From Nostoc sp. GT001 (GTDB lineage: Bacteria > Cyanobacteriota > Cyanobacteriia > Cyanobacteriales > Nostocaceae), in the NCBI RefSeq assembly GCF_030382115.1, contig NZ_JAUDRJ010000003.1:4023518-4077031 (forward strand): 53,514 nucleotides of DNA, given 5' to 3'. Numbering within the stretch: position 1 is the stretch's first letter; each line of letters starts with the position of its first letter. The notes under the pieces are model-generated. The model was given only the letters and a program-made list of their open reading frames with translations. It did not search any database and was not told where the DNA came from. Positions 2,977 to 28,794 of this stretch are shown here, piece after piece. The translations under genes were made by a program, and so were the position numbers.

Positions 2977-4200
2977 ATGTTTTATAAAGTTTTCCAAAAT
3001 ATAAAAGAAAAAATGTTTCAGATAAAAAAATACTTCAAGGAATTAGCTTTGTTTGCCGGAACACCAACCTTCTCGGAAAAATTACATGTTGGTCGTCCCA
3101 ATATTGGAAACCGCGAACACCTACTTAATCGCATCAATGACATCTTAGATAAAAGATGGCTAACGAACAATGGGTCTTATGTACAAGAATTTGAGCAACG
3201 CATTGCTGAATTTGTCGGAGTAAAGCATTGTATTGCTAGCTGTAACGCTACAGTAGCATTAGAAATAGCTATCCGCGCTGTGGGTTTAAAAGGTGAAGTT
3301 ATTGTCCCTTCTTTTACCTTTATTGCAACTGCACACGCTCTACAATGGCAAGAAATTACCCCTGTATTTTGTGATATTGATCCTAAAACACACAACATTG
3401 ATCCAAAACAAATAGAGCAGTTAATAACTCCACGTACTACAGGTATTATTGGCGTTCATTTGTGGGGTCGTCCTTGTAACGTGGAGGTTTTAAGTAAAAT
3501 TGCCCGTACCCACAACTTAAAATTAATGTTTGATGCGGCTCATGCTTTCGGTTGTTCACATCAAGGACGTATGATTGGTAGCTTTGGAGATGCCGAAGTT
3601 TTTAGCTTCCACGCTACTAAGTTTTTGAATACATTTGAAGGTGGAGCAATTGTTACAAATAGTGATGAACTAGCGGAAAAAATTCGCTTGATGACAAATT
3701 TTGGTTTTGCTGGTATGGATAATGTTATCTATATTGGTACAAATGGCAAGATGAATGAAATATCAGCAGCAATGGGATTAACTTCCCTAGAAAGTATTGA
3801 TAGCTTTATTGAAGTTAACTATAGTAATTATAGATGTTACCAAAAAGAGCTTGCTGATATTCCAGGGATTTCTTTATTGACTTATAATGAAGGTGAAAAA
3901 TGTAACTATCAGTATATTGTTTTAGAAATAGAACAATATAAAACTAAAATAAGTAGAGACAAACTACTCGAAATTCTTCATACTCAAAATGTGATAGCTC
4001 GGCGCTATTTTTATCCAGGTTGTCATCGAATGGAGCCTTACAGATCGTATTTTCCGTATGCCAGACTAGTACTACCTGAAACTGAACAATTAGCAGATAT
4101 TATTTTAGTTTTACCTACAGGAACATCAGTTAATCAAGATCAGATTCGCATGATAGCTAAACTTATTAGAATTGCTATTATTGAAGGTAAAACTAGTTAA
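2977..4200 (+). CDS. DegT/DnrJ/EryC1-type PLP-dependent sugar aminotransferase
   Basis: The product is 407 residues, close to the usual length of nucleotide-sugar aminotransferases plus an N-terminal extension of about 30 residues. Visible motifs are the substrate-loop SCNATVALEIAIRA, PSFTFIATAHALQW, the PLP-binding FDAAHAFGC, and FSFHATKFLNTFEGGAIVT containing the Schiff-base lysine. The family transfers an amino group from glutamate to a keto-sugar nucleotide, in the cytoplasm. It follows the acyltransferase and methyltransferase on the same strand, and an aminotransferase plus hexapeptide acyltransferase is the classic pair for making N-acylated deoxyamino sugars. The specific sugar is unknown. 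Confidence 0.88.
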   Translation: MFYKVFQNIKEKMFQIKKYFKELALFAGTPTFSEKLHVGRPNIGNREHLLNRINDILDKRWLTNNGSYVQEFEQRIAEFVGVKHCIASCNATVALEIAIRAVGLKGEVIVPSFTFIATAHALQWQEITPVFCDIDPKTHNIDPKQIEQLITPRTTGIIGVHLWGRPCNVEVLSKIARTHNLKLMFDAAHAFGCSHQGRMIGSFGDAEVFSFHATKFLNTFEGGAIVTNSDELAEKIRLMTNFGFAGMDNVIYIGTNGKMNEISAAMGLTSLESIDSFIEVNYSNYRCYQKELADIPGISLLTYNEGEKCNYQYIVLEIEQYKTKISRDKLLEILHTQNVIARRYFYPGCHRMEPYRSYFPYARLVLPETEQLADIILVLPTGTSVNQDQIRMIAKLIRIAIIEGKTS

Positions 4201-4548
4201 CAAAAAACAATCAATTACTTATCCAATATATAGCTTATCCAATATATAGGAATCCGGTTTTATTTCTGAATTTACTTGCATGAGCAGGGAACAGGGAACA
4301 GGGAATAGGGAACAGGAAAGAAGGCATAGATCAGTACTGAGTCTTGTTCAAAAATTAAATAGGAGTCCTATATAGCTTATCCAATATATAGAATGAATGA
4401 TTTAGATAAAAGATAGTTATAGCTTTTGCTTTTAGACTCAAAGATACATCGGCACACACCATTATTTTTTGCTTACCAATAATGGGGATATCTATAATAA
4501 TTTAAACCCTTTTTTTGCCAAAAAAAACTAACTATTAAGGTAAATATT
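4201..4548. repeat. Intergenic repeats: 16-base unit in three copies plus heptamer-like GGGAACA tract
   Basis: The unit CTTATCCAATATATAG occurs in direct tandem at 4218-4233 and 4234-4249 and again at 4376-4391. Between them, 4285-4316 is a GGGAACA-type heptamer tract, a short tandem repeat class common in Nostoc. No coding frame is convincing. A promoter for the giant glycosyltransferase gene may lie in the last 150 bases, but no clear element can be assigned. Confidence 0.6.
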
Positions 4549-7500
4549 ATGAGTAGAAATACCAAAAAATGTCAGTTAAACTTTATTATATCTGCTCCAG
4601 CATTTAAATTTAATACGGGTGGAGTTGTCGCTCTTTATAATCTCGCTCGAATCATTGATGAATATAATATTCCTTGCAAAATATTTGACACAGATGGAGC
4701 TAGATTGCCAAACAATATTTTTGATGATTATGCAACAGAAGCTGATCTCAATGAGAATACGGTTGTAATATATTCAGAGGTTGTTGTTGGCAATCTTGTA
4801 AATGCAAAGTATGTAGTTAGATGGATTCTTTGCGAACTTGGCATTCATTGTCCACATGATATATATACAACATGGGGAAAAGATGATTTTATTTATCATT
4901 ATAGTACATACAATCCTCAAAAAAATGTAAAATACTATAATATTCTTTCCCCTGTATACGTAGAACCCAGATTAAAAAATAATGCCAGATCAAGAGATGG
5001 ATATTGTCACATTATAAGGAAAGGTCACAAATTTCACAAACCATTGATCCATATTCATCCGTCCAATTCCCTTCTGTTGGATGATAATTTATCTCAAGAA
5101 GTTCTTATTGAAATATTTAATATAAAAGAATATTTAATTTCTTATGATCCATATTCTTATATTACTTACATGGCGGCTTTATGTGGGTGTATTTCCATAG
5201 TAATGCCAATCAAAGGAACTAGCAAAGAGCAATGGCTTCAAAGCTCATTTATTTCTAAAGTTTTGGAACAATCTGAAGACAAGGAATTAAAGGGAATTGC
5301 TTATGGATTAGAAGAAGTAGAATATGCAAGAGAAACATTGCAAGAGGTACGAAATCAACAAGGCATATTTGTCCAATATGGCAAAGATTCTGTTTTGCGC
5401 TTTATCAATGATATGATTAGCATAGTTTGTGCTGAATCAGAATCAACAATATCACCAAAAAATTCTAATATTTTACGAGTTATAGATGTATTCCCGATTA
5501 GTAAATTTCCACTAATACTAGAAGAGAGTACACAACAATATAATTCAAAAAAGATTGTTAATAATCTGAAAGATATTAACTTTATTATCTTCCCAGATTG
5601 GAGTCAATCAGAAGAATCAATTGGTTTAGAGTTGCAAGAAGTGATTAAAATTCTTGCAACTTATCCTGATAGTCAAAATACTACTCTGCTGATTGACAGT
5701 AGTAACATTCCAATCGAAGATGCTGAACTATTTTTATCCAGTGTCGCCATGAATTTGCTGATGGAAGAAGATTTAGACATAACTAATGAGTTAGAAATTT
5801 CCTTAGTTGGAGACTTATATAATATCCAATGGCAAGCTTTGTTACCACGCATTAAGGCAAGAATTGTTTTGAAACAGGAAAACCAGGAGGCACAGGCAAA
5901 AAAACTAATTCAAAACCTTGCAGCTTGGGATATAGATATCTTAATCGCTTCCGCCTTAGAAAATAAAACGGTTTCTTGTCTTGACTTTCAACCTGTTTTT
6001 AGTATAATATTCCCAGTCTTTAATACTCCTGAGCAATACTTAAAACCTGCCATTGAGTCTGTATTAAATCAGATTTATCCATACTGGGAGTTATGTATTG
6101 CTGATGATGCTTCTACCAAACCTAATATTAGAAAAATATTAGAAGAGTATTCTCGAACAGATTCCCGCATCAAAGTTATCTTCAAAAATGAAAATGGTCA
6201 TATTTCTCGTTCCTCTAACTCAGCTATAGAAATAGCAACAGGAGAGTTTATAGCACTTTTTGATCACGATGATTTATTAACATCAGATGCCTTATACGAA
6301 GTAGCACTGCTGCTCAATCAGCATCCAGATGCAGATATGATCTATTCAGATGAAGATAAAGTTGATGACAACAACCAATTTCTTTTCCCTACTTATAAAC
6401 CAGATTGGTGTCCTGATTCATTTTTGTCTCGAATGTACACTTGTCATCTCGGCATTTATCGCCGATCGCTTATTAACGAAATCGGCGGTTTTAGAGTTGG
6501 TTATGAAGGAAGCCAAGATTACGATTTGGTTTTGAGATTGACAGAGAAAACAGAGAAAATATTTCATATACCTAAAGTTCTATATCATTGGCGTCTTCAC
6601 TCTGGTTCTACATCTGCTTCTACGACTGCAAAATCTTATGCCTATGAAGCAGGATTTAAGGCTTTGACAGATGCGCTTGCTAGAAGAGGCGAAAAAGGCA
6701 CAATCTTACCAGACTCTAATATTCCTGGGCATTACCATGCTCGTTACGAAATAGACTCTTATAAACTAGTTAGTATTATCATTATTGCAAGAGATTTTGG
6801 CTCCATATTCAATCAATGCCTAGAATCAATTTTTGCAGAAACTTTATATCCGAACTATGAAGTAATTGTCATAGATAATGGTAGTATATCTCAGCCATTA
6901 AAAATTATTGATAAGTGGCAAGTTCAACAGCCTAATCGATTTAAGTATTACTCTCATAATATTCCATTGAATTACTCAAAGCTAAATAATTATGCTGTTA
7001 CAAAAGCGCAAGGTGATTATTTATTTTTTCTGAGTAGTGACATTCAGGTTCTTCAAGGGGATTGGCTTAATGTAATGGTTGAGCAAGCCCAAAGAGAGTG
7101 TATTGGTGCCGTTAGTGGATTTTTAATTGATTCCAACAACTCTATTCAACACGTAGGATTAGCACTGGGTTTAGGCAAAATTGCTAGTCATATCTATAAA
7201 GGACTTACTAAAATAGACGAATACGAAACTTTAGCTAATATAGCATTGATTAAGAACGTCTCAGCCGTAACAGAAGATTGTTTAATGTGTCGTAGAGACG
7301 TGTTTGAAAGTGTTGATGGATTTGATGAAACATTACCTCTTGTCTACAACGATGTGGATTTGTGTTTAAAACTGATAGCGAAAGGATATAAAAATATTTA
7401 TCTTCCTCATGTCAAGCTCATTCACCATGAATTCAGCAGTTGGGAAGTTCAAATTAGGAAGGAAGAACGTTTATATATTGAAGAGATAGCAGTTAATTTC

Positions 7501-10500
7501 ATGCAAGAAAAGTGGGGTAAGATCCTTGAATATGATCCTTGCTGTAGTCCTCACTTAATTAGAAACCTAAACCTTAAAATTCAAGCAGAAAACAAGAAAA
7601 TAATACAACATTATAGTCAAGATGTAGAAACAGAGCCAAAAGAATTTTTTCAGCCTCTTGTAAGTATTTGCATTCCTACTTATAATGGGGAAAGCTTTAT
7701 TGCAGAAGCTATTAATAGTGTATTATGCCAAACCTATCCAAATATAGAAATTATCTTATCTGACGATAATTCTACTGACAAAACAGTTGAGATTTCTAAA
7801 TCATTTAACCAAAAATTATCCTTTGATTTTTCAATTCTCCATCATACTCAGTATGGACTAGCTCAGAATTGGAATTTTTGTATTTCTCAAGCTAAAGGCA
7901 AGTATATAAAGTTTTTATTTCAAGATGACTTATTAGAGCCAACTGCTATTGAAGAAATGGTTAATTTGGCTGAACGAGATGAAGAAATAGGTTTGGTTTT
8001 TTCGCCGAGAAGACTTTTCACTAATACTGGCGATACTGTCTATGATTCAAACTTTTTAATGCATCACGAAGCTAAGGATGTACACAAAGCTTGGTCAGAA
8101 TTAAAGCCAATTCAATCAGGACAGCAACTTTTGCAAGATTCCAATATACTTGACAATCCAATTAATAAAATTGGAGAGCCAAGCACAGTACTTATTAGAA
8201 AAGATGTTTTTGATAAAGTAGGATTATTTAACTCTGAGTTTTGCCAACTTGTAGATTTAGAAATGTGGCTCAGAGTTATGAGTCAATACAAAATCGGTTT
8301 TGTTGACAAAGTTTTATCCCAATTTAGGATACATCCACAACAACAAACTCGTCGGAATGCTGCTTTAAAAGATGCTATTTTATTAGATTATCAAAAGCTT
8401 TTTAAGACAATTTACAGCGATACACGATATCCTCAAGCAACGAGGCAACAAGCTCTTTATAGATACGCAACTTTGAGTGAACAAAATGGAGAATTGCATC
8501 AGTTGCGAAAACAAATAACAGAAGAATGTCTAAATGCTTCAGATGAGCAGATAACAGATATGTATCTGGGTCTGTTAGGTAAAACACATAAGATGTTAGT
8601 GAATAGTAGCATCAAATATGAAAGCCTGGCTAATGAAGAACAGATTTTTGTTAATAATATCGTTACAACTATATCTCAAGGTTTTGAACAGCCAAAAGCA
8701 ATTCAGAGTTTACTCGCAGCTATGCTGTATTGCCGTGCTGACCAGTTACCATTACAGCATAACCTCTCTCACATACCCCATTGGTTAGTTCAGGACTATT
8801 TACAATTCCTATTTTCTTCCCCAGTTCACTTTCAAGAACCGGGTGAGGCAGATAATTACTATTACTTTATGCAAGGATGGATTAATTATTTACACACATC
8901 AATATTACAAAATTCTGATTCTCAATCGTGGGATACAATACTTAATAATTTTGTGTCCATTTCTAATTTTATTGCCCTATATTTTAATGATCATAATCTT
9001 AAAGATATCTATGTTAAACGTGCAGGAATTATAGAATATTTACTAAAAGTTAAGGGTTATAAGGTAGATTACGAGTTTGTTGATAGACCTATAACCAGAA
9101 AAAAAATACGCTTGGGTGTCCTGGCTGCACATTTTCTACCTGGTTCTGAAACATTTGCTTACCTGCCTGTTTATGAGTATATCAGTAGAGATTTTGAAGT
9201 AATTTTGTACTCTCTTAATCAAACTGGTCATAAACTAGAGCAATATTGTCAAAGCTGTGCTAACTCTTTTAAACTACTGCCACAAGATTTAGTAGAACAG
9301 GTAAATATTATTCGTGCTGATGATCTCGATATATTATTTATTGCTACCAATGTGACGGCAGTAACAAATCAAATTTGCCTTTTATCAATGCATCGGTTAG
9401 CCAGAATACAAATTACAAGTGGCGGATCTGTGGTAACAACAGGAATGCGGCATATAGATTATTACATTTCTGGTACTCTAACCGATCCATCGCCAACGGC
9501 AGAACAGCAATATCAAGAAAAGTTGGTGAAACTTGAAGGGTCTGCTCATTGCTTTAGTTATGGTAATGAGGAAGAAAATGTAATTGTCAAAGTCGATCGA
9601 GAAAGTTTGGGTATATCCGAAGAAACAGTTATTTTTATCTCTGGTGCTAACTTCTTTAAAATCATCCCTGAACTAATTGATATTTGGGCAAAAATAATTT
9701 CTGGAGTTCCTAACTCTGTTTTAGTGCTTCTGCCATTTGGCCCAAATTGGTCAAACAATTATCCTAAGAAAGCTTTTGTAAATCACTTAATGAAAGTGTT
9801 TTCAAAGCATGGAATATCGGCAGAAAAATTAATAGTTTTAGATCCTCAGCCCGTGCCAAACCGCCAAGAAGTTAAAGAATACTTCAAAATTGCCGATATT
9901 TATCTAGATTCTTTTCCATTTTCTGGAACAACTTCTTTAATAGAACCACTACAGGTTAATTTACCAGTAATTGCTAGACTGGGAACTAGTTTTCGCTCTA
10001 CAATGGGGGCTGCAATGGTGCAGACATTAGATATACCTGATTTAGTCGCAGATAGTGAAGAGTCTTATATACAGTTAGCGATCGCACTCGGCAATAACCC
10101 TAAATTACGCCAACAAAAGAGCGCCGAAATCAAGGCAAAAATGCAAGCTAATCCTAGTTTTCTAGATAGTCGCTCTTACTCAGATAAAATAGGTAGTCTC
10201 TTCCAAGAACTATTTAGTAAATATCTTGCAGATACTCTGAGTCAAAATTTCCGCTTAGGAGATATTAACCTAATTATTTTTCCAGATTGGTTACAGCCAG
10301 AAGACTTACTATATCAAGATTTAGCAAGTGTCATTTCTACTCTCACTACTCACCCAGATAAAAGTAACTTAACTCTCCTGATAGATACTCAAAATATTTC
10401 TGAAGAAGAAGCCGATATGCTTTTATCGTCTTTGACCATGAATTTGCTCATGGAAGATGATGTCGATATAACTGAGGGGCCAGAAATTTCTCTGCTTAGT

Positions 10501-22214: not shown

Positions 22215-23969
22215 GTGAAAAACCTCTTAGGATTAGTAATATTAGGCTGTATTCTCACCTCCTCAGTAACCTTGGCAGAGCCATCTCTCATAGTCGTTTT
22301 TCCCCAGACAAACTACCAGACAAGTGCCCAAAAAATCTTCTTTCTGGGCACTGCACCACCAGATGGTCAGGTTTTGATCAATAGTAAGCCAATTAACCGC
22401 AGCAAAGCTGGTCATTTTTCGCCTAGTTTCCCCTTACAGTTGGGGGAAAATCTTTTTACTGTGCGTCACCAGAATCAAGAACTTAAAATTAAGGTGATCG
22501 GGCTTAACGCTAGCCCTGAACTACCACAGGGGGTAGCCTTTGCGAAAGATTCTCTGACTCCCGCAGTTGACATTGCCAGATTACCGGGAGAAGTAATTTG
22601 TTTTAGCGCGATCGCACCTCCTAACGCTAATGTCTCTGTAACCCTGGCTAATCAAACTATTGCCCTTTTACCACAACCTCAACAAGCACAACTACCAAGT
22701 AATTTGGCAGCTTTGACAGGTCAAAATCAGCCTCATGCCCAGTCTAGCGTAGGCAACTATCAAGGTTGCACCGCAGTAGCAACAGCTGCCGATCTAGGAA
22801 AACCTCAATTTCAACTGACGCTTGATGGGAAGACAATAACTCAATCAGGATCTGGTAAGATTGAAATCCTCTCAAGATCACAGTTGCCAGTTTCTGAGGT
22901 TACAGTAGAGTTAGGCGTTGCTCGTACTGGCCCTAGCACCGATTATTCCCGACTTACACCATTGCCCAAAGGCACACGCGCAACAGTTACAGGTAGGGAA
23001 GGTGAATGGTTGCGCCTAGATTATGGCGCTTGGATTAATAGTAAAGAAACCCGCATTCTCCCTGGTGCAGTTCCGCCACAAACAATAATTCGCAGTGTCG
23101 GATACCGTCAACTCCCTAGTGCGACAGAGATAGTTTTCCCCTTGCAAGTTCCCGTACCCGTGAGCGTACAACAAAGTGAGCAAACTCTCGCTCTCACTCT
23201 CTACAATACCACTGCCCAAACAGACATCATTCGCCTGGATGACAACCCCCTAATTAATCGCCTAGACTGGCAACAGGAAGCCCCAGGACAAGTAAAATAC
23301 ACCTTTAACCTCAAAAAAGCTCAACAGTGGGGATACAAGCTGAGATACGACGGTACAACCCTGGTTTTGGCTTTGCGTCATCCGCCTAAAATCGGGAACA
23401 CAAGACGAAAGCTTTTAGCTAATTTCAAGATTGTACTAGATCCAGGGCATGGCGGTAAAGAATCTGGTGCCAGTGGGCCAACTGGATATTTAGAAAAAGA
23501 TGTCAATTTGGTAGTTTCCAAGTTGTTGCGGGACGAATTGGTGAAGCGAGGGGCAACGGTGGTGATGACGCGGGAGGACGACAAGGAAGTTTCGCTAGTA
23601 GAACGTCAGGCAATTATCAGTCAAGAAGAACCTGCGATCGCTATTTCCATACATCACAACTCTCTACCCGATAATGGCGATGCCGAGAAAACCAAGGGAT
23701 TCGGCACGTTTTGGTATCATCCCCAAGCCCACAGCCTCGCAATATTTTTACAGAACTATGTAGTCAAAAAACTCGGCAGACCTCATTATGGGGTGTTTTG
23801 GAACAACCTAGCACTGACACGTCCCGCTGCTGCGCCATCAGTATTGCTGGAATTGGGTTTTATGAGTAATCCTGATGAATTTGAGCAGGTAGTGAACCCA
23901 GAAGAACAGAAGAAAATGGCAAAAGCGATCGCTCAAGGGATTACAGAGTGGGTTAGGAGTGTGAGATAA
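22215..23969 (+). CDS. N-acetylmuramoyl-L-alanine amidase (Amidase_3, AmiC-like)
   Basis: The 584-residue protein begins at GTG with a signal peptide (KNLLGLVILGCILTSSVTLA). A bacterial SH3-like region with VTVELGVARTGPSTDYSRL lies at about 235-280, an AMIN-like region at about 300-390, and the zinc amidase at about 405-584. The amidase shows the zinc ligands in VLDPGHGGKESG, the Glu in GYLEKDVNL, SIHHNS, and the catalytic Glu in LLELGFMSN. It cleaves the amide bond between muramic acid and the stem peptide in the periplasm. In filamentous cyanobacteria such enzymes also drill septal nanopores for cell-cell communication; whether this copy does so is inference. It is divergent from pyrG. Confidence 0.92.
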   Translation: MKNLLGLVILGCILTSSVTLAEPSLIVVFPQTNYQTSAQKIFFLGTAPPDGQVLINSKPINRSKAGHFSPSFPLQLGENLFTVRHQNQELKIKVIGLNASPELPQGVAFAKDSLTPAVDIARLPGEVICFSAIAPPNANVSVTLANQTIALLPQPQQAQLPSNLAALTGQNQPHAQSSVGNYQGCTAVATAADLGKPQFQLTLDGKTITQSGSGKIEILSRSQLPVSEVTVELGVARTGPSTDYSRLTPLPKGTRATVTGREGEWLRLDYGAWINSKETRILPGAVPPQTIIRSVGYRQLPSATEIVFPLQVPVPVSVQQSEQTLALTLYNTTAQTDIIRLDDNPLINRLDWQQEAPGQVKYTFNLKKAQQWGYKLRYDGTTLVLALRHPPKIGNTRRKLLANFKIVLDPGHGGKESGASGPTGYLEKDVNLVVSKLLRDELVKRGATVVMTREDDKEVSLVERQAIISQEEPAIAISIHHNSLPDNGDAEKTKGFGTFWYHPQAHSLAIFLQNYVVKKLGRPHYGVFWNNLALTRPAAAPSVLLELGFMSNPDEFEQVVNPEEQKKMAKAIAQGITEWVRSVR

Positions 23970-24140: not shown

Positions 24141-24530
24141 ATGAGTGAACAACAAGAAAAACCACTTAAATGGATTGCAAGCGCTCTTGATGATTTAAAG
24201 AAGTTTCCTGAAGATGTACAAGATGTAATGGGTTATGCCCTGGATTTGGCACAACATGGTGAAAAGCATCCTGATGCAAAACCTTTACATGGATTTTCAG
24301 GGGCTAGCGTTTTAGAAATTGTAGATGATTTTGATGGGGATACATACAGAGCAATTTACACTGTTAAATTTGCAGGAGTTGTTTACTTATTGCATTCATT
24401 TCAAAAGAAATCAAAACATGGTATTGCTACACCGCAACAAGACATAGATTTGGTTAAAAAGAGATTAAAAGACGCTCAGAAAGATTATTCAACAGAAACA
24501 GCTAAAAAGAACGAGCTAAAAAATGAGTAA
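24141..24530 (+). CDS. HigB/Gp49-type toxin (phage-derived, RelE-like)
   Basis: The 129-residue product has the Gp49-like layout: LKWIASALDDLKKFPEDVQDVMGYALDLAQ, then KPLHGFSGASVLEIVDDFDGDTYRAIYTV and VYLLHSFQKKSKHGIATP, matching the RelE-fold mRNA interferases paired with HigA. The family cleaves mRNA on the ribosome. It overlaps the downstream antitoxin gene by eight bases, a toxin-first order typical of higBA and a strong sign of translational coupling. The antitoxin usually represses the shared promoter. Confidence 0.88.
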   Translation: MSEQQEKPLKWIASALDDLKKFPEDVQDVMGYALDLAQHGEKHPDAKPLHGFSGASVLEIVDDFDGDTYRAIYTVKFAGVVYLLHSFQKKSKHGIATPQQDIDLVKKRLKDAQKDYSTETAKKNELKNE

Positions 24531-24849
24531 CGAAAATAATGTTTACGTTAGTAGCGGGAATGTGTTTGCTGATTTAGGATTACCTAATCCCGAAGAAAGA
24601 CTTGTCAAAGCCGAACTTGCTCGTAAAATTAGTGAAATCATTACTACTCGAAAATTAACACAAGTGCAAGCTGGTGAAATTTTAGGAATTGATCAGCCTA
24701 AAGTTTCTTCATTAATTAGAGGACGATTAAGCGGGTTTTCACTTGATAGATTGATTAGCTATTTGAATAGTTTGGGTAATGATGTAGAAATCACAATTAA
24801 ACCCAAACCTGAAAATCGCCCAATTGGACGTACAACCGTAGTCTGTTAA
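24523..24849 (+). CDS. HigA-type antitoxin, XRE-family DNA-binding protein
   Basis: The 108-residue product has a helix-turn-helix at about 43-75 (LTQVQAGEILGIDQPKVSSLIRGRLSGFSLDRL), the pattern of XRE/HigA antitoxins partnered with Gp49-type toxins. It would neutralise the toxin and autorepress the operon. It overlaps the toxin gene by eight bases. The pair sits beside the HNH/actin-like cassette and supports an accessory or mobile character for 24-28 kb. Confidence 0.88.
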   Translation: MSNENNVYVSSGNVFADLGLPNPEERLVKAELARKISEIITTRKLTQVQAGEILGIDQPKVSSLIRGRLSGFSLDRLISYLNSLGNDVEITIKPKPENRPIGRTTVVC

Positions 24850-25194: not shown

Positions 25195-25602
25195 TCAAGA
25201 TAGCCTTTGATAATATGGCTCAAAAGGTTGATAAGTATCTAGGAATTCAAATGTACTCGCTAATGTAGTCATTGAACGAGATATCGCTACCCTCTGAGAG
25301 TCTATCAATTCCTTTATTTCGGGTATTGTAATTAGTTCTTCAAACTCAGATTCAATAACAATTAAAAAATTTATTTCTTTTCTAGAATCATTTTTTATCT
25401 CATCGTGCGTTATTAGAAATGGGTAAGTCACCTCTTTTTCTAAATCAAAATAACAAACTTCCCAATTTTTATCCGGTAGCTTGTAAATATTTTCTTTGTT
25501 TACAAGCAATTCCTGTCCTGCCTTAAAGTCTTTCGGTTGGTTAAGAGGAATACACTCTTTATAATGTCTCTGTTTGACATCATCATAAAGTTTAATTTTC
25601 AT
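25195..25602 (-). CDS. Hypothetical protein (135 aa), third gene of the HNH/actin-like cassette
   Basis: I do not recognise this protein. It starts MKIKLYDDVKQRHYKECIPL and looks soluble, with a beta-rich first half (DKNWEVCYFDLEKEVTYPFLITHDEI) and an acidic helical second half. It has no signal peptide or membrane segment. It follows the actin-like gene by 76 bases on the same strand, so it is probably co-transcribed and may be an accessory or immunity-like partner; this is inference from position only. Confidence 0.6.
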   Translation of the reverse strand: MKIKLYDDVKQRHYKECIPLNQPKDFKAGQELLVNKENIYKLPDKNWEVCYFDLEKEVTYPFLITHDEIKNDSRKEINFLIVIESEFEELITIPEIKELIDSQRVAISRSMTTLASTFEFLDTYQPFEPYYQRLS

Positions 25603-25678
25603 TTGTTTACTGGTATGTTAAATCAATCTTTACAGCTACCAAAAATTATCTTTGCTTTGGGATAAATTCAAAGTAACA

Positions 25679-27205
25679 TCAGTTTTCTGACCTAGCACGG
25701 CGATCAATGGCGCGTAATTGCGCCTCACCATAAATATACTGCCCCAAAGCATTAGCTTGCCTAGCGGGTGCCGCTAAATGGACATAAATCTTTGCTTCCT
25801 TGAGTAGACGTTGAACGTCATCCCAGTAGAATTCACCGCCACCACCAGTAATAATCACATCAGTTACACGCTCTGGCAACCAGGCTAGAACACGGCTACA
25901 GATTTCACGAGAAAACATCTCTGTGAGGTTAGGAAGAAAATCGTCTAAGTTAGTGAGTTTGCTTGCTCCTTTAGGAAGATAAAAACGCTCGCCTCTGGGT
26001 TTGTTAACAGCAGAAATCAGCGCTAGAGATTGACTATCAGCACCTTCTATTTCAGCAGATACCAGTTCATAGAACTTATGCATACCAAAGTCTTCACTCT
26101 TAGAAGCATCTCTAGTAAAACGGAATTTATCTACCATCAAAAGATCGACGGTTTGATGTCCGATATCAACTATCGCCACCGATATTTTTGTAAAATCGGG
26201 ACTGTTAGGACTTTTCTTAGGTTGAGCTTCAGACCACAACAGGCTGCCATAGCCCTCTGGCATTACCCATACCTTACTGACATTCAGCGACACAGATTCG
26301 CCTCGGAAGTTCAACACGTGAGGGCCACCTACTTGACTAATCAATTGTGCTTTTTCTTTTTCAAATTGCTCTAAAGAAAGAAAAGGCAGACCAAGTACAA
26401 CTGAGATATCGTCTCTGAGTTTGAAGTAGCCAGCACTTGCTAAAACTTTTACCAGTGCAGCTTCTACCTTAGATTGTCCGACTCCTAAATTCGCCCCAAA
26501 ATCGGCTGCCAGTTGACCAACAGCATATCCATTTCCTTGATACTCCAGCCACAAATCCATTAAGGGGTCAGTAGCTCTGGCTTCAAAAACACCACCGCGT
26601 ACTTGTTCTATTGACATCTGCTTGACGTTGGCAGGTACGAACACCACACTGCCTGGTTCACGACTCACACAAGTTTTTGTGGAAGTTCTGCCTAAGTCAA
26701 CACTGAGAAGAGTTTTACTGCCAACATTGTTGGGTTTTACAGTGTTGATTTGTTTAGTTGCTGCTGTTGCTGTTAAAAGACGTGCATAGTAGTCATTAGG
26801 AACAATAATTAACTCCTCTTTTAAGAGGTATAGAACTTGGTTAGTTTGCTCCACTGCTGCTTGAAATCTATTTAAAGCATCTGTTGTAGATTCTCTATCA
26901 ATCTCCCACATTAAGGAAATGAGATTCTGTTGCAATCGCACTGCCAAACGCAAACAGTCTTTTTCTACTTCATCTAATGCGTGTTGGCGAGTTAAATCAT
27001 TAATCTGCCTTTTGCTCTGATCAGCAAATTCATAATATTTCTTCTCTAAATTAGCGTATTTGTCTGTTAATTCATTTGCAACTTGTCTGTGATGCTTGCC
27101 TGCTTGTCTGTCCTTTTCTCCAGCAGCATGAGCAGTAAAAGCACCTGCGACAGCACCAACTGCCGCCCCTAAAACACCAAACAGAAGAGGAATTATAAAA
27201 ATCAT
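25679..27205 (-). CDS. Membrane-anchored coiled-coil protein with ParM/actin-like ATPase domain
   Basis: The 508-residue product opens with a glycine/alanine-rich membrane segment (residues 2-26). Residues 40-130 are a charged helical, probably coiled-coil, region. From about 164 it is an actin-like ATPase: phosphate-1 motif SVDLGRTSTKT (168-178), phosphate-2 motif VDIGHQTVD (346-354), and adenosine motif VIITGGGGEFYW (450-461), followed by RQANALGQYIYGEA. ParM/Alp-type actins form filaments that move plasmids; an N-terminal membrane anchor is unusual for them. It lies 19 bases after the HNH-motif gene, so coupled expression is likely. It may polymerise at a membrane or use the ATPase as a sensor or switch; function is unknown. 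Confidence 0.8.
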   Translation of the reverse strand: MIFIIPLLFGVLGAAVGAVAGAFTAHAAGEKDRQAGKHHRQVANELTDKYANLEKKYYEFADQSKRQINDLTRQHALDEVEKDCLRLAVRLQQNLISLMWEIDRESTTDALNRFQAAVEQTNQVLYLLKEELIIVPNDYYARLLTATAATKQINTVKPNNVGSKTLLSVDLGRTSTKTCVSREPGSVVFVPANVKQMSIEQVRGGVFEARATDPLMDLWLEYQGNGYAVGQLAADFGANLGVGQSKVEAALVKVLASAGYFKLRDDISVVLGLPFLSLEQFEKEKAQLISQVGGPHVLNFRGESVSLNVSKVWVMPEGYGSLLWSEAQPKKSPNSPDFTKISVAIVDIGHQTVDLLMVDKFRFTRDASKSEDFGMHKFYELVSAEIEGADSQSLALISAVNKPRGERFYLPKGASKLTNLDDFLPNLTEMFSREICSRVLAWLPERVTDVIITGGGGEFYWDDVQRLLKEAKIYVHLAAPARQANALGQYIYGEAQLRAIDRRARSEN

Positions 27206-27224
27206 ACAATTTTTGACTAATTCT

Positions 27225-28235
27225 CTAGGAATGAGGAGGAAGGTAAAGAAGTTGAGAATCAGGCAGTAACTTACTATCAGTTGATGCTAGTCCTAAAGAC
27301 TGAGCAATAGCGACTGATTCACGTAAGCGTTGCATAGTCCCTTCTATTCCCGGTGCAATTGGACGATTTGTAATTTTTTGATTAATTGCTTCTGATTCTG
27401 CCAAAAACTTTAGATTTTTATGGTGTTCATAAATCAGTTCTTTTTCAATTGCTTGTAATCTTTCTAATTCTTGTTGAGTTAAAGATTCATAATAGATTTT
27501 CACAGTTTGTTTATGGTCATCGAGGATTTTGAAAAACTCGTAAACCATACCCGCAGTTCCAACAACAGCTAAAACTGGTGCTGCTGCGGTTAAAGCGATC
27601 GCAATTGGTGGACAAGCTGCTGCTACTGTTGTGGTTACAAACGCTGTCACACCCCCAACTGTGCCGCCTTTTACGGTATCTTTCAATGTTTCTATAGCGG
27701 CTTCTTGTGCAGAAATTTCACCCCGAACTACCCGCAGCGCGTTGGTTAGTAACGAAAATGGTGCTGTCGTCGCTACACCAATGGCTGCTCCCAGGGGCGC
27801 GGCTTTAACACCTGCTTTAACTGCACCTGTTAGATTGTCAAAATGCCATTTAGCATCTAGTCTCATTTGCTCCTGCGAAGTCATGGGTTTATCGCCACGG
27901 GCTAAATTATCTTTGGCGTTTTCCCACTTGATATTTTGAGGATCATTTGAGCCGCCTTTGCTATGCGATTTGATATGACTGGCGTGTTTATCTGATAGGT
28001 ATTTTTGGGTATTAACATCAGTAGATTTGCCATCAATCCCTGCTCTTTGAGATGGAGGGATTTTATCTAACATTTCTTGGGCTTGCACTCTGGTTCTGAT
28101 CGGATCGCCAGATCGAATCCCACCTTTATATAATCTACGGGCTGCACTTAAGGATAAATCCTGTAATTGAGGATGTTGAACATTAATGTTGGCAGCAGCG
28201 TTAAAAGCGGAATTACGCTCTTGTTCGTCAGACAT
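27225..28235 (-). CDS. HNH-motif protein with membrane segments
   Basis: The 336-residue product has an HNH-like centre at residues 80-115: KHASHIKSHSKGGSNDPQNI then KWENAKDNLARG, with His84, His87, His91, the GG pair, and Asn97, Asn101 and Asn110 spaced as in HNH nucleases. Two hydrophobic stretches follow, about 146-166 and 193-235 (the latter very alanine/valine-rich), then a helical tail. HNH domains are usually nucleases; fusion to membrane segments is seen in some toxins and defence effectors. It is the first gene of the cassette, upstream of the actin-like ATPase. Nuclease activity and topology are inferred. I do not recognise the full architecture. Confidence 0.72.
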   Translation of the reverse strand: MSDEQERNSAFNAAANINVQHPQLQDLSLSAARRLYKGGIRSGDPIRTRVQAQEMLDKIPPSQRAGIDGKSTDVNTQKYLSDKHASHIKSHSKGGSNDPQNIKWENAKDNLARGDKPMTSQEQMRLDAKWHFDNLTGAVKAGVKAAPLGAAIGVATTAPFSLLTNALRVVRGEISAQEAAIETLKDTVKGGTVGGVTAFVTTTVAAACPPIAIALTAAAPVLAVVGTAGMVYEFFKILDDHKQTVKIYYESLTQQELERLQAIEKELIYEHHKNLKFLAESEAINQKITNRPIAPGIEGTMQRLRESVAIAQSLGLASTDSKLLPDSQLLYLPPHS

Positions 28236-28416: not shown

Positions 28417-28794
28417 ATGTATTTTAAGATAGGCGGGATTGTGGGAGCGATCGCTATTTTATTAAGTAATGGTAGTGCCATCGCTGAAGATGCACAGAGA
28501 TATATCACTGTAGGGCATGATAAATTAGGAAACAGTGTAGCTCTGGATACGGAAACTATAAAAGGCACTACATACAAGCTTTACGGAATGTATGGTGATG
28601 GCATTTTCGAGACTACATTCGATGCTTCGTGCAAAGAATCGCGGCTTTTTCGGAATCGCATTGCCATTTATGGTTCGGAGGGACAGCTACTTCAAGAGGA
28701 TCGAGAAAAAGGAGAAATACCTTTTGTAGCTAATTCTTCACCAGGCAAAGGAATGCAAATTGTTTGTCAAAAGATTGGTGCAGATGGTTGGTAG
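28417..28794 (+). CDS. Hypothetical secreted protein (125 aa)
   Basis: The product starts with a signal peptide (KIGGIVGAIAILLSNGSAIA, cleavage likely before EDAQ) and a short beta-rich domain. Two cysteines (in DASCKES and QIVCQK) may form a disulfide. The pattern TVGHDKLGNSVALDTETIKGT resembles small periplasmic cyanobacterial proteins, but no function is known. It is divergent from the HNH-motif gene. Confidence 0.65.
   Translation: MYFKIGGIVGAIAILLSNGSAIAEDAQRYITVGHDKLGNSVALDTETIKGTTYKLYGMYGDGIFETTFDASCKESRLFRNRIAIYGSEGQLLQEDREKGEIPFVANSSPGKGMQIVCQKIGADGW

Follow-up and report, generated by a model that had tools for sequence, protein, structure and literature searches.

An HNH-membrane protein and a membrane anchor with exchangeable tails form a conserved gene pair in cyanobacteria, a probable modular conflict system

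In a stretch of 53,514 nucleotides from Nostoc sp. GT001 (hereafter the window; its contig measures 7.29 Mb within a 7.9 Mb genome) we identified a conserved pair of genes, which encode an HNH-membrane protein and a membrane anchor, and found that the tail of the anchor is exchanged between relatives. In the window the tail is an actin that comes from the chromosomal shape gene fcmB. A conflict system with a variable tail is probably the right description of this pair. We also lean, by a narrower margin of confidence, towards a modular membrane-bound system, most likely directed against phages, in which the tail would sense or dock and control the HNH effector. The three same-strand open reading frames (ORFs) proposed in a first-pass annotation of this DNA all lie where they had been placed, on the minus strand: gene 1, the HNH-membrane protein of 336 amino acids (27225..28235), gene 2, a membrane anchor fused to an FcmB-type actin (25679..27205, 508 amino acids), and gene 3, an accessory protein of 135 amino acids (25195..25602). 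They are separated by 19 bases (genes 1 and 2) and 76 bases (genes 2 and 3).

The conserved partner of gene 1 is the anchor, residues 1-145 of gene 2 (26771..27205, minus strand). It comprises a single strongly hydrophobic segment (residues 1-29, by hydropathy) followed by about 115 helical-looking residues with a YtxH-like match below the cut-off. Among 145 family genomes, an HNH match at E<=0.001 occurs in 40 and an anchor match in 23. A strong anchor (E<1e-40) is present in 18 genomes, and these are the same 18 that hold a complete or near-complete close HNH relative, the HNH gene being split in G015 and G087 and divided into two pieces in G121. Short fragments of close HNH relatives stand without an anchor match in G027, G029, G091, G127 and G140, and five genomes (G024, G077, G094, G107 and G120) show no more than weak anchor matches. 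A relative of gene 1 was absent from the 9.5-10 kb read around the weak anchors of G024, G077 and G107; G024 holds an anchor-actin gene of 627 amino acids. We then compared 45 distinct loci (the window, 40 others, and L039, L042, L047 and L054). The anchor lies downstream of the HNH gene in 38 of them, mostly 18-74 bases on and farther away in L093, L094, L100 and L112, and in the remaining seven (L054, L081, L108, L109, L110, L113 and L114) the HNH matches are incomplete. The conserved unit is thus made of two genes, and their pairing goes far beyond chance. The earlier proposal of an HNH protein linked to a membrane-anchored, polymerising-type nucleoside triphosphatase holds as regards the link, but the conserved partner is the anchor, with actin in 12 of the 38 anchored loci.

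Some HNH relatives depart from this layout. Loci L055-L074 belong to a more distant HNH-membrane family, found in many family genomes, with the same H-N-N core and no anchor match. In L047 an N-terminal HNH fragment (2028-2306, 60% identical) precedes, by about 4.8 kb, a second HNH match without its first ~86 residues, and in L108 (8001-10085) a deletion has apparently produced an in-frame fusion of the HNH gene with the last part of a dynamin tail (699 amino acids in L052, the same locus).

The tails of the 38 anchored loci are of several kinds. Actins of the FcmB/CorM type occur in 12 loci, two of them truncated, and dynamins in 13 (nine fused and four separate, that of L089 being broken), with two further dynamin remnants in L094 and L112. 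LRV tails above the LRV cut-off were found in L098 and L106, and a single locus (L086) carries a GUN4 tail with four GUN4 copies (433.4 bits). Five tails are zinc-ribbon-like: L099 and L103 match the ribbon model below its cut-off, and L101, L102 and L105 were assigned by reading their cysteine pairs. Three tails are short or of no recognised type (L079, L097 and L111). The dynamin tails of these sister systems match Dynamin_N at 5e-17, with partial matches to LeoBC (2.2e-9) and BDLP (2j68; 2.5e-10). A protein-database search with the anchor alone widened this range, returning 63 proteins of about 280-889 amino acids with 29 actin, 15 dynamin, three GUN4 (one with FtsZ) and six LRV/trefoil-type tails and ten with no named tail; TPR tails came in with a further search (19 proteins). 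In the FtsZ part of protein P0135, 146 of 279 aligned residues are identical to the FtsZ of the window genome. Given that its GGGTGTG signature is replaced and one stretch is missing, this tail is degenerate, by this reading a dead copy. The HNH protein P0004 comes from a contig of the same length (159972), the one link between it and P0135.

The exchange of tails can be followed at the DNA level. In all six comparisons of systems with different tails, homology runs through the HNH gene and the anchor and ends at codon 142, 143, 142, 148, 148 and 143 of gene 2, which places the junction at codons 142-148 (26762..26782, minus strand); in the same-tail control (window/L104) it continues to codon 320. 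Homology restarts past the tail in four of the six (window/L091, window/L077 and L092/L039, actin/dynamin, and L086/L084, GUN4/actin), and therefore tails are exchanged at one genomic site. The tail of the anchor is replaced as a cassette at codon ~143. On an HNH tree of 36 proteins, built from the anchored loci with the seven anchor-less loci and the two remnants left out, tail type changes 10 times, against a possible minimum of five and a mean of 19.1 for shuffled labels, so that tails are both inherited and exchanged.

While the tails vary, gene 1 is the fixed core of the system. Its HNH core (residues 83-113; 27897..27989, minus strand) was recognised from conservation and from a predicted strand-strand-helix arrangement (strands 83-87 and 102-106, helix 107-113) in a model with a predicted local distance difference test score of 71-90 per ten-residue block across residues 21-130. 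The protein family numbers 355 members at E<=1e-3, and among the best 120 of these H87, N101 and N110 (spacing 14 and 9) are invariant and H91 is kept in 115; H84 (80 of 120) and N97 (86 of 120) are not conserved. Of the catalytic-looking residues named at the outset, H87, N101, N110 and very nearly H91 thus hold up, but H84 and N97 vary among relatives. The triad extends to 19 distant relatives (H87 in 19, N101 in 19 and N110 in 18, with one gap). Against the Pfam HNH model gene 1 remains below threshold (E 0.081, 13.5 bits, cut-off 21.4), and a fold search with the whole predicted model gave no convincing match. Glycine/alanine-rich segments in residues 142-238 (27522..27812, minus strand), modelled as helices with low confidence, may enter the membrane; the hydropathy of segments 145-163 and 193-238 is moderate only. 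In the nearest named loci, from Nostoc (N. foliaceum), the HNH protein is 94% identical.

The actin tail of the window (residues 161-508; 25679..26725, minus strand) derives from chromosomal fcmB, as indicated by family models, the match to a PDB chain and trees. Gene 2 matches ALP_N at 3.4e-16, and its residues 146-497 match the NCBIfam FcmB family (NF052678) at 1.3e-206 and 685.7 bits, above the cut-off of 300; the CorM chain of PDB 9rmi is matched over residues 3-345 of 348 (4e-199). ParM-type models reach 53.1 bits against a cut-off of 417. The "ParM-type actin behind a membrane segment" of the first-pass annotation therefore keeps its actin fold and its hydrophobic residues 1-29, but is FcmB-derived and not a plasmid ParM. 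Taken literally, the actin does match a chromosomal housekeeping family, which the first-pass annotation had named as a refuting outcome. Despite this origin, the fusion is a gene of its own, conserved separately from the unfused fcmB that accompanies it. The window genome has an ordinary unfused fcmB elsewhere, followed by a gene of 159 amino acids in the fcmC position, and a resident unfused FcmB with a frame of about 385-407 codons is present in 25 of 25 other genomes searched. Across 353 residues the window tail is 92.7% identical to its resident FcmB. According to the study describing it (PMC12645912), FcmB maintains rod shape in Nostoc punctiforme together with FcmC, forms membrane-bound filaments and is said to descend from partition actins.

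Part of this similarity was acquired from the resident gene. We compared the window tail, the sister fusion of N. foliaceum and the window genome's own fcmB at 128 diagnostic sites: six fusion-type sites are followed by 40 resident-type and four fusion-type sites (26696-26279), and then by 77 fusion-type sites and one resident-type site. The resident-type sites are clustered (permutation p 1e-4), and the pattern therefore marks a conversion tract of ~420 bases from resident fcmB (26279..26696, minus strand). A single clade of fusions is rejected by the approximately unbiased test (p-AU) on the whole actin domain (0.0058) and on its 5' half (2e-5), and is not rejected on the 3' half (0.50, or 0.28 without residues 360-370). 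We do not claim several independent captures of fcmB, since the rejection comes from the 5' half and the 3' half permits one origin; one or few captures with repeated gene conversion of the 5' half would explain the trees best and is the history that we favour. The ratio of nonsynonymous to synonymous substitution rates lies at 0.03-0.07 for six pairs of resident FcmBs and at 0.10-0.22 for four fusion-resident pairs, whereas five pairs of fusions have values of 0.16, 0.19, 0.20, 0.23 and 0.53. Actin tails are under purifying selection, which is looser than on resident FcmB. One actin-tailed protein (P0152) seems, by eye, to bear the N-terminal tail typical of resident FcmB, which suggests a recent transfer from fcmB.

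The window tail contains the motifs DLGRTSTK (residues 170-177; 26675..26698, intact), DIGHQTVD (residues 347-354; 26144..26167, intact) and TGGGGEFYW (residues 453-461; 25823..25849), all on the minus strand, which we take to be the phosphate-1, phosphate-2 and adenosine motifs, respectively. Phosphate-2 is changed at T352/D354 in four of ten fusions, the window's being unchanged. Another site separates the fusions from the resident proteins: 26 resident FcmBs have 224 columns without variation, and only at A364 and G366 does every one of the 10 full fusions differ from them, the window reading T364-R365-D366 there (26108..26116, minus strand). Position 366 is glycine in 26 of 26 resident FcmBs and in none of 35 fusion rows that extend over it (10 taken from loci and 25 from the protein search, the latter included irrespective of HNH linkage, with at least three duplicates), four truncated rows not reaching it; A364 is retained once (P0134). 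From actin anatomy, site 366 would be close to the loop following phosphate-2, through which filament and partner contacts are made. Loss of G366 as a universal mark of fusions was set aside, given that the HNH-less anchor-actin gene of L186 retains G366. In this gene (3033-4916, minus strand) an anchor with a longer coiled coil is fused to an FcmB actin, a relative of gene 1 being absent nearby, and about 3 kb away (8045-9148) the sequence reads as a pentapeptide-type protein with a different HNH-like C-terminus.

How could such a system work? We propose that the proteins of genes 1 and 2 would form a complex in the cytoplasmic membrane, in which the tail would be the sensing or docking part and would hold the HNH domain silent. 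A product of a phage or mobile element may then bind or disturb the tail, or the filament or membrane beneath it, upon which the released HNH domain would cut DNA and the infected cell of the filament would be killed or arrested. An anti-phage role in particular seems to us slightly better than an even guess. The window's tail copies the resident shape actin FcmB/CorM; gene conversion keeps it close to the original, yet one fixed site is altered. Such a tail would suit a bait, or a docking subunit in modified form, better than a shape protein in service. The bait mechanism as such we advance tentatively, at rather less than even chances. Related precedents exist: three articles report phage or prophage products acting on FtsZ and MreB (PMC10714956, PMC12482147, PMC11762379), a bacterial dynamin is reported to give phage resistance (PMC8844932), and PMC7159879 describes conflict systems of multicellular bacteria with GUN4 and inactive cell-division domains, proposed as decoys. 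A fuller version, somewhat more doubtful still, is immunity by integrated decoys, where a membrane HNH executioner would be guarded by a partner with replaceable look-alikes of host cytoskeletal proteins or other sensors. On attacking the cytoskeleton, phage proteins would strike the bait and thereby trigger the nuclease, the bait might be refreshed from the host gene through gene conversion, and the G366 substitution could keep it out of host filaments, or able to cap them.

Several observations weigh against this explanation. The nuclease activity, the anti-phage effect and any ligand of the tail are putative. Bait cannot be a universal function, because tails of the zinc-ribbon-like, short and repeat kinds do not copy host proteins. 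A search of the window genome (without a positive control) gave no resident counterpart of the dynamin tail. The window actin retains its ATP-site motifs. Tails are partly inherited, their labels being more clustered on the HNH tree than the shuffled mean of 19.1 changes. HNH relatives of 26-38% identity, several of them fragments, stand without an anchor match in 20 loci, and one anchor-actin gene with no relative of gene 1 nearby retains G366. As for the neighbourhood, with PADLOC at 1e-12, 150 of 171 neighbouring ORFs at 17 loci gave 62 families, including DISARM, DRT and BrxH-type models, and 150 of 200 ORFs around resident fcmB at 16 control loci gave 58, those among the 25 listed being mainly QueC and one restriction-modification set (the comparison covers 25 listed families on each side, members not distinguished).

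The tail might instead be a scaffold or address label with no bait involved, polymerising with or docking on host structures (the FcmB girdle, the Z ring, membranes) and thus placing and clustering the HNH-anchor pair at sites of DNA entry or at cell junctions. Most tails are of filament- or coat-forming types (actin in 12 and dynamin in 13 of the 38 anchored loci), the window actin retains all three nucleotide motifs, its 92.7% identity to resident FcmB across 353 residues makes co-assembly conceivable, and resident FcmB forms membrane-bound filaments (PMC12645912). However, the FtsZ tail is without its GTP-binding signature, phosphate-2 residues are altered in four of ten actin tails, polymerisation is not known for tails of the zinc-ribbon-like or short kind, and gene 2 already has a membrane anchor of its own; we regard the scaffold as rather unlikely. 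Still less probable, though worth naming, is a toxin for kin recognition or contact-dependent competition, in which the tail would be a polymorphic recognition cassette and the HNH protein would reach adjacent cells of the filament or become active there. The fixed 5' part with cassette-like 3' replacement at one codon and one site would suit such a system, as would the small gene directly after some actin tails, but here variation affects a stretch that is no recognised toxin and the putative toxin stays constant, a Pfam search of the system's proteins found no delivery domain, and the small gene accompanies four of 12 actin-tailed copies.

Two accounts centred on the actin itself fare worse. 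The fusion could be an additional FcmB paralog, anchored in the membrane and adjusting filament morphology, to which the HNH gene is a bystander; this would agree with the match of 685.7 bits and with the need for FcmB in the rod shape of Nostoc punctiforme (PMC12645912). Such a role is very improbable and was disfavoured, since the same HNH and anchor bear dynamin, GUN4 or other tails; moreover, the system occurs in 18 of 145 family genomes against 25 of 25 searched for resident fcmB, and the FcmC-position protein of the window genome has no match beside any fusion (a diverged FcmC could be missed). The DNA-positioning role suggested at first, that is, a ParM-like partition device, we consider hardly credible and rejected. 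In its favour, gene 2 is weakly similar to ParM-type models (53.1 bits, cut-off 417) and close relatives occur on four of 72,556 plasmid records, yet the actin is an FcmB and not a plasmid ParM, no FcmC/ParR-like partner was found beside the fusion, and the tail is replaceable by non-filament domains.

Gene 3 is a real ORF of 135 amino acids, as the first-pass annotation had it, but not a conserved member of the system: it occurs in three of 145 family genomes, the window genome included. It accompanies four of the 12 actin-tailed copies (the window, L075, L076, where it is partial at a contig end, and G015); in G015 it stands on another contig beside the actin remainder, and in G074 it lies elsewhere among unrelated genes. 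Searches of domain and family libraries, including Pfam, PADLOC and NCBIfam, gave no family above cut-off.

The system occupies an insertion site shared between genomes, with an amidase-like gene (so named by sequence reading; 22215..23969, plus strand) at one edge and a conserved gene of 125 amino acids (28417..28794, plus strand) at the other. We examined this site in 14 genomes, five of which were unreadable (G090, G110, G148, G150 and G151). It holds the system in four, with actin in the window and G146 (seen from one side, where the contig ends) and dynamin in G142 and G149; G147 has a degraded HNH remnant, G145 and G134 about 255 bases, and G059 and G006 other cargo. A toxin-antitoxin-like gene pair (Gp49/DUF891 and HTH_37) lies at the same site in the window (24141-24849, plus strand). 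At this chromosomal site in another genome of the genus (L179, 2573-5455) we noted a protein of 960 amino acids that reads as nuclease-related at the N-terminus, sigma-70-like in the middle and TPR at the C-terminus. The system is also found elsewhere in genomes and on plasmids, where eight of the 72,556 records have a match, four of them nearly full-length (76-79% identity). Among viral contigs 107 pattern matches yielded no confirmed relative, and phage records gave a single weak match to a partition protein.

If the decoy explanation is true, bacteria would protect their cytoskeleton in much the way that plants watch over immune targets, by means of baits that are copies of host proteins, and inhibitors of division and shape proteins would become risky for phages to carry. 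With actin, dynamin, FtsZ and GUN4 tails occurring naturally on one effector, the sensor logic becomes testable through swaps, and a single glycine separates the working shape actin from the HNH-linked copies.

The pair fits no catalogued system well, in keeping with the first impression that it matched none, and searches of the open PMC literature (preprints not covered) gave no description of the HNH-anchor pairing. Its tail is an FcmB domain (685.7 bits; 4e-199 to CorM in 9rmi) like that of the FcmB/CorM described in PMC12645912, but here it is anchor-fused, HNH-paired and accessory, and it is without the resident-invariant G366; no fcmC stands beside the fusions, the next gene (25195-25602) being unrelated to the window genome's FcmC-position protein, although a diverged FcmC could be missed. 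The VMAP ternary and variable conflict systems with effector-associated domains (Kaur et al., 2020; PMC7159879) likewise belong to multicellular bacteria and swap domains, including GUN4 and inactive cell-division domains of the FtsZ, MinD and FtsK families, for which a decoy role was suggested. They are built around a MoxR-vWA core, whereas here the effector is fixed and the tail of its partner varies, and Pfam found no MoxR, vWA or VMAP domain in the system's own proteins (neighbours outside the scan). In PMC8195603 HNH and GUN4 appear among the variable domains of conflict proteins other than this pair. Bacterial dynamins (LeoABC, PMC4159319; DynA, PMC8844932; BDLP, 2j68) share Dynamin_N with the tails of sister systems, in which the dynamin is fused to or beside an HNH-linked anchor; the window has actin instead. 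Membership in the PADLOC candidate PDC-M09 is not established, given that the PDC-M09B models match gene 1 (9.4e-6) and the N-terminus of gene 2 (0.0034) with low scores and partial cover. Polymorphic toxins resemble the system in their conserved 5' part and cassette-replaced 3' part; they differ in having a downstream immunity gene, whereas here the recognised tails (actin, dynamin, GUN4, LRV, TPR and FtsZ) include no recognised toxin, no downstream gene is constant and no delivery domain was found. Plant nucleotide-binding leucine-rich repeat receptors with integrated decoys are immune proteins that bear a copy of a host protein as bait, and the bait proposed here would, by analogy only, be their bacterial likeness.

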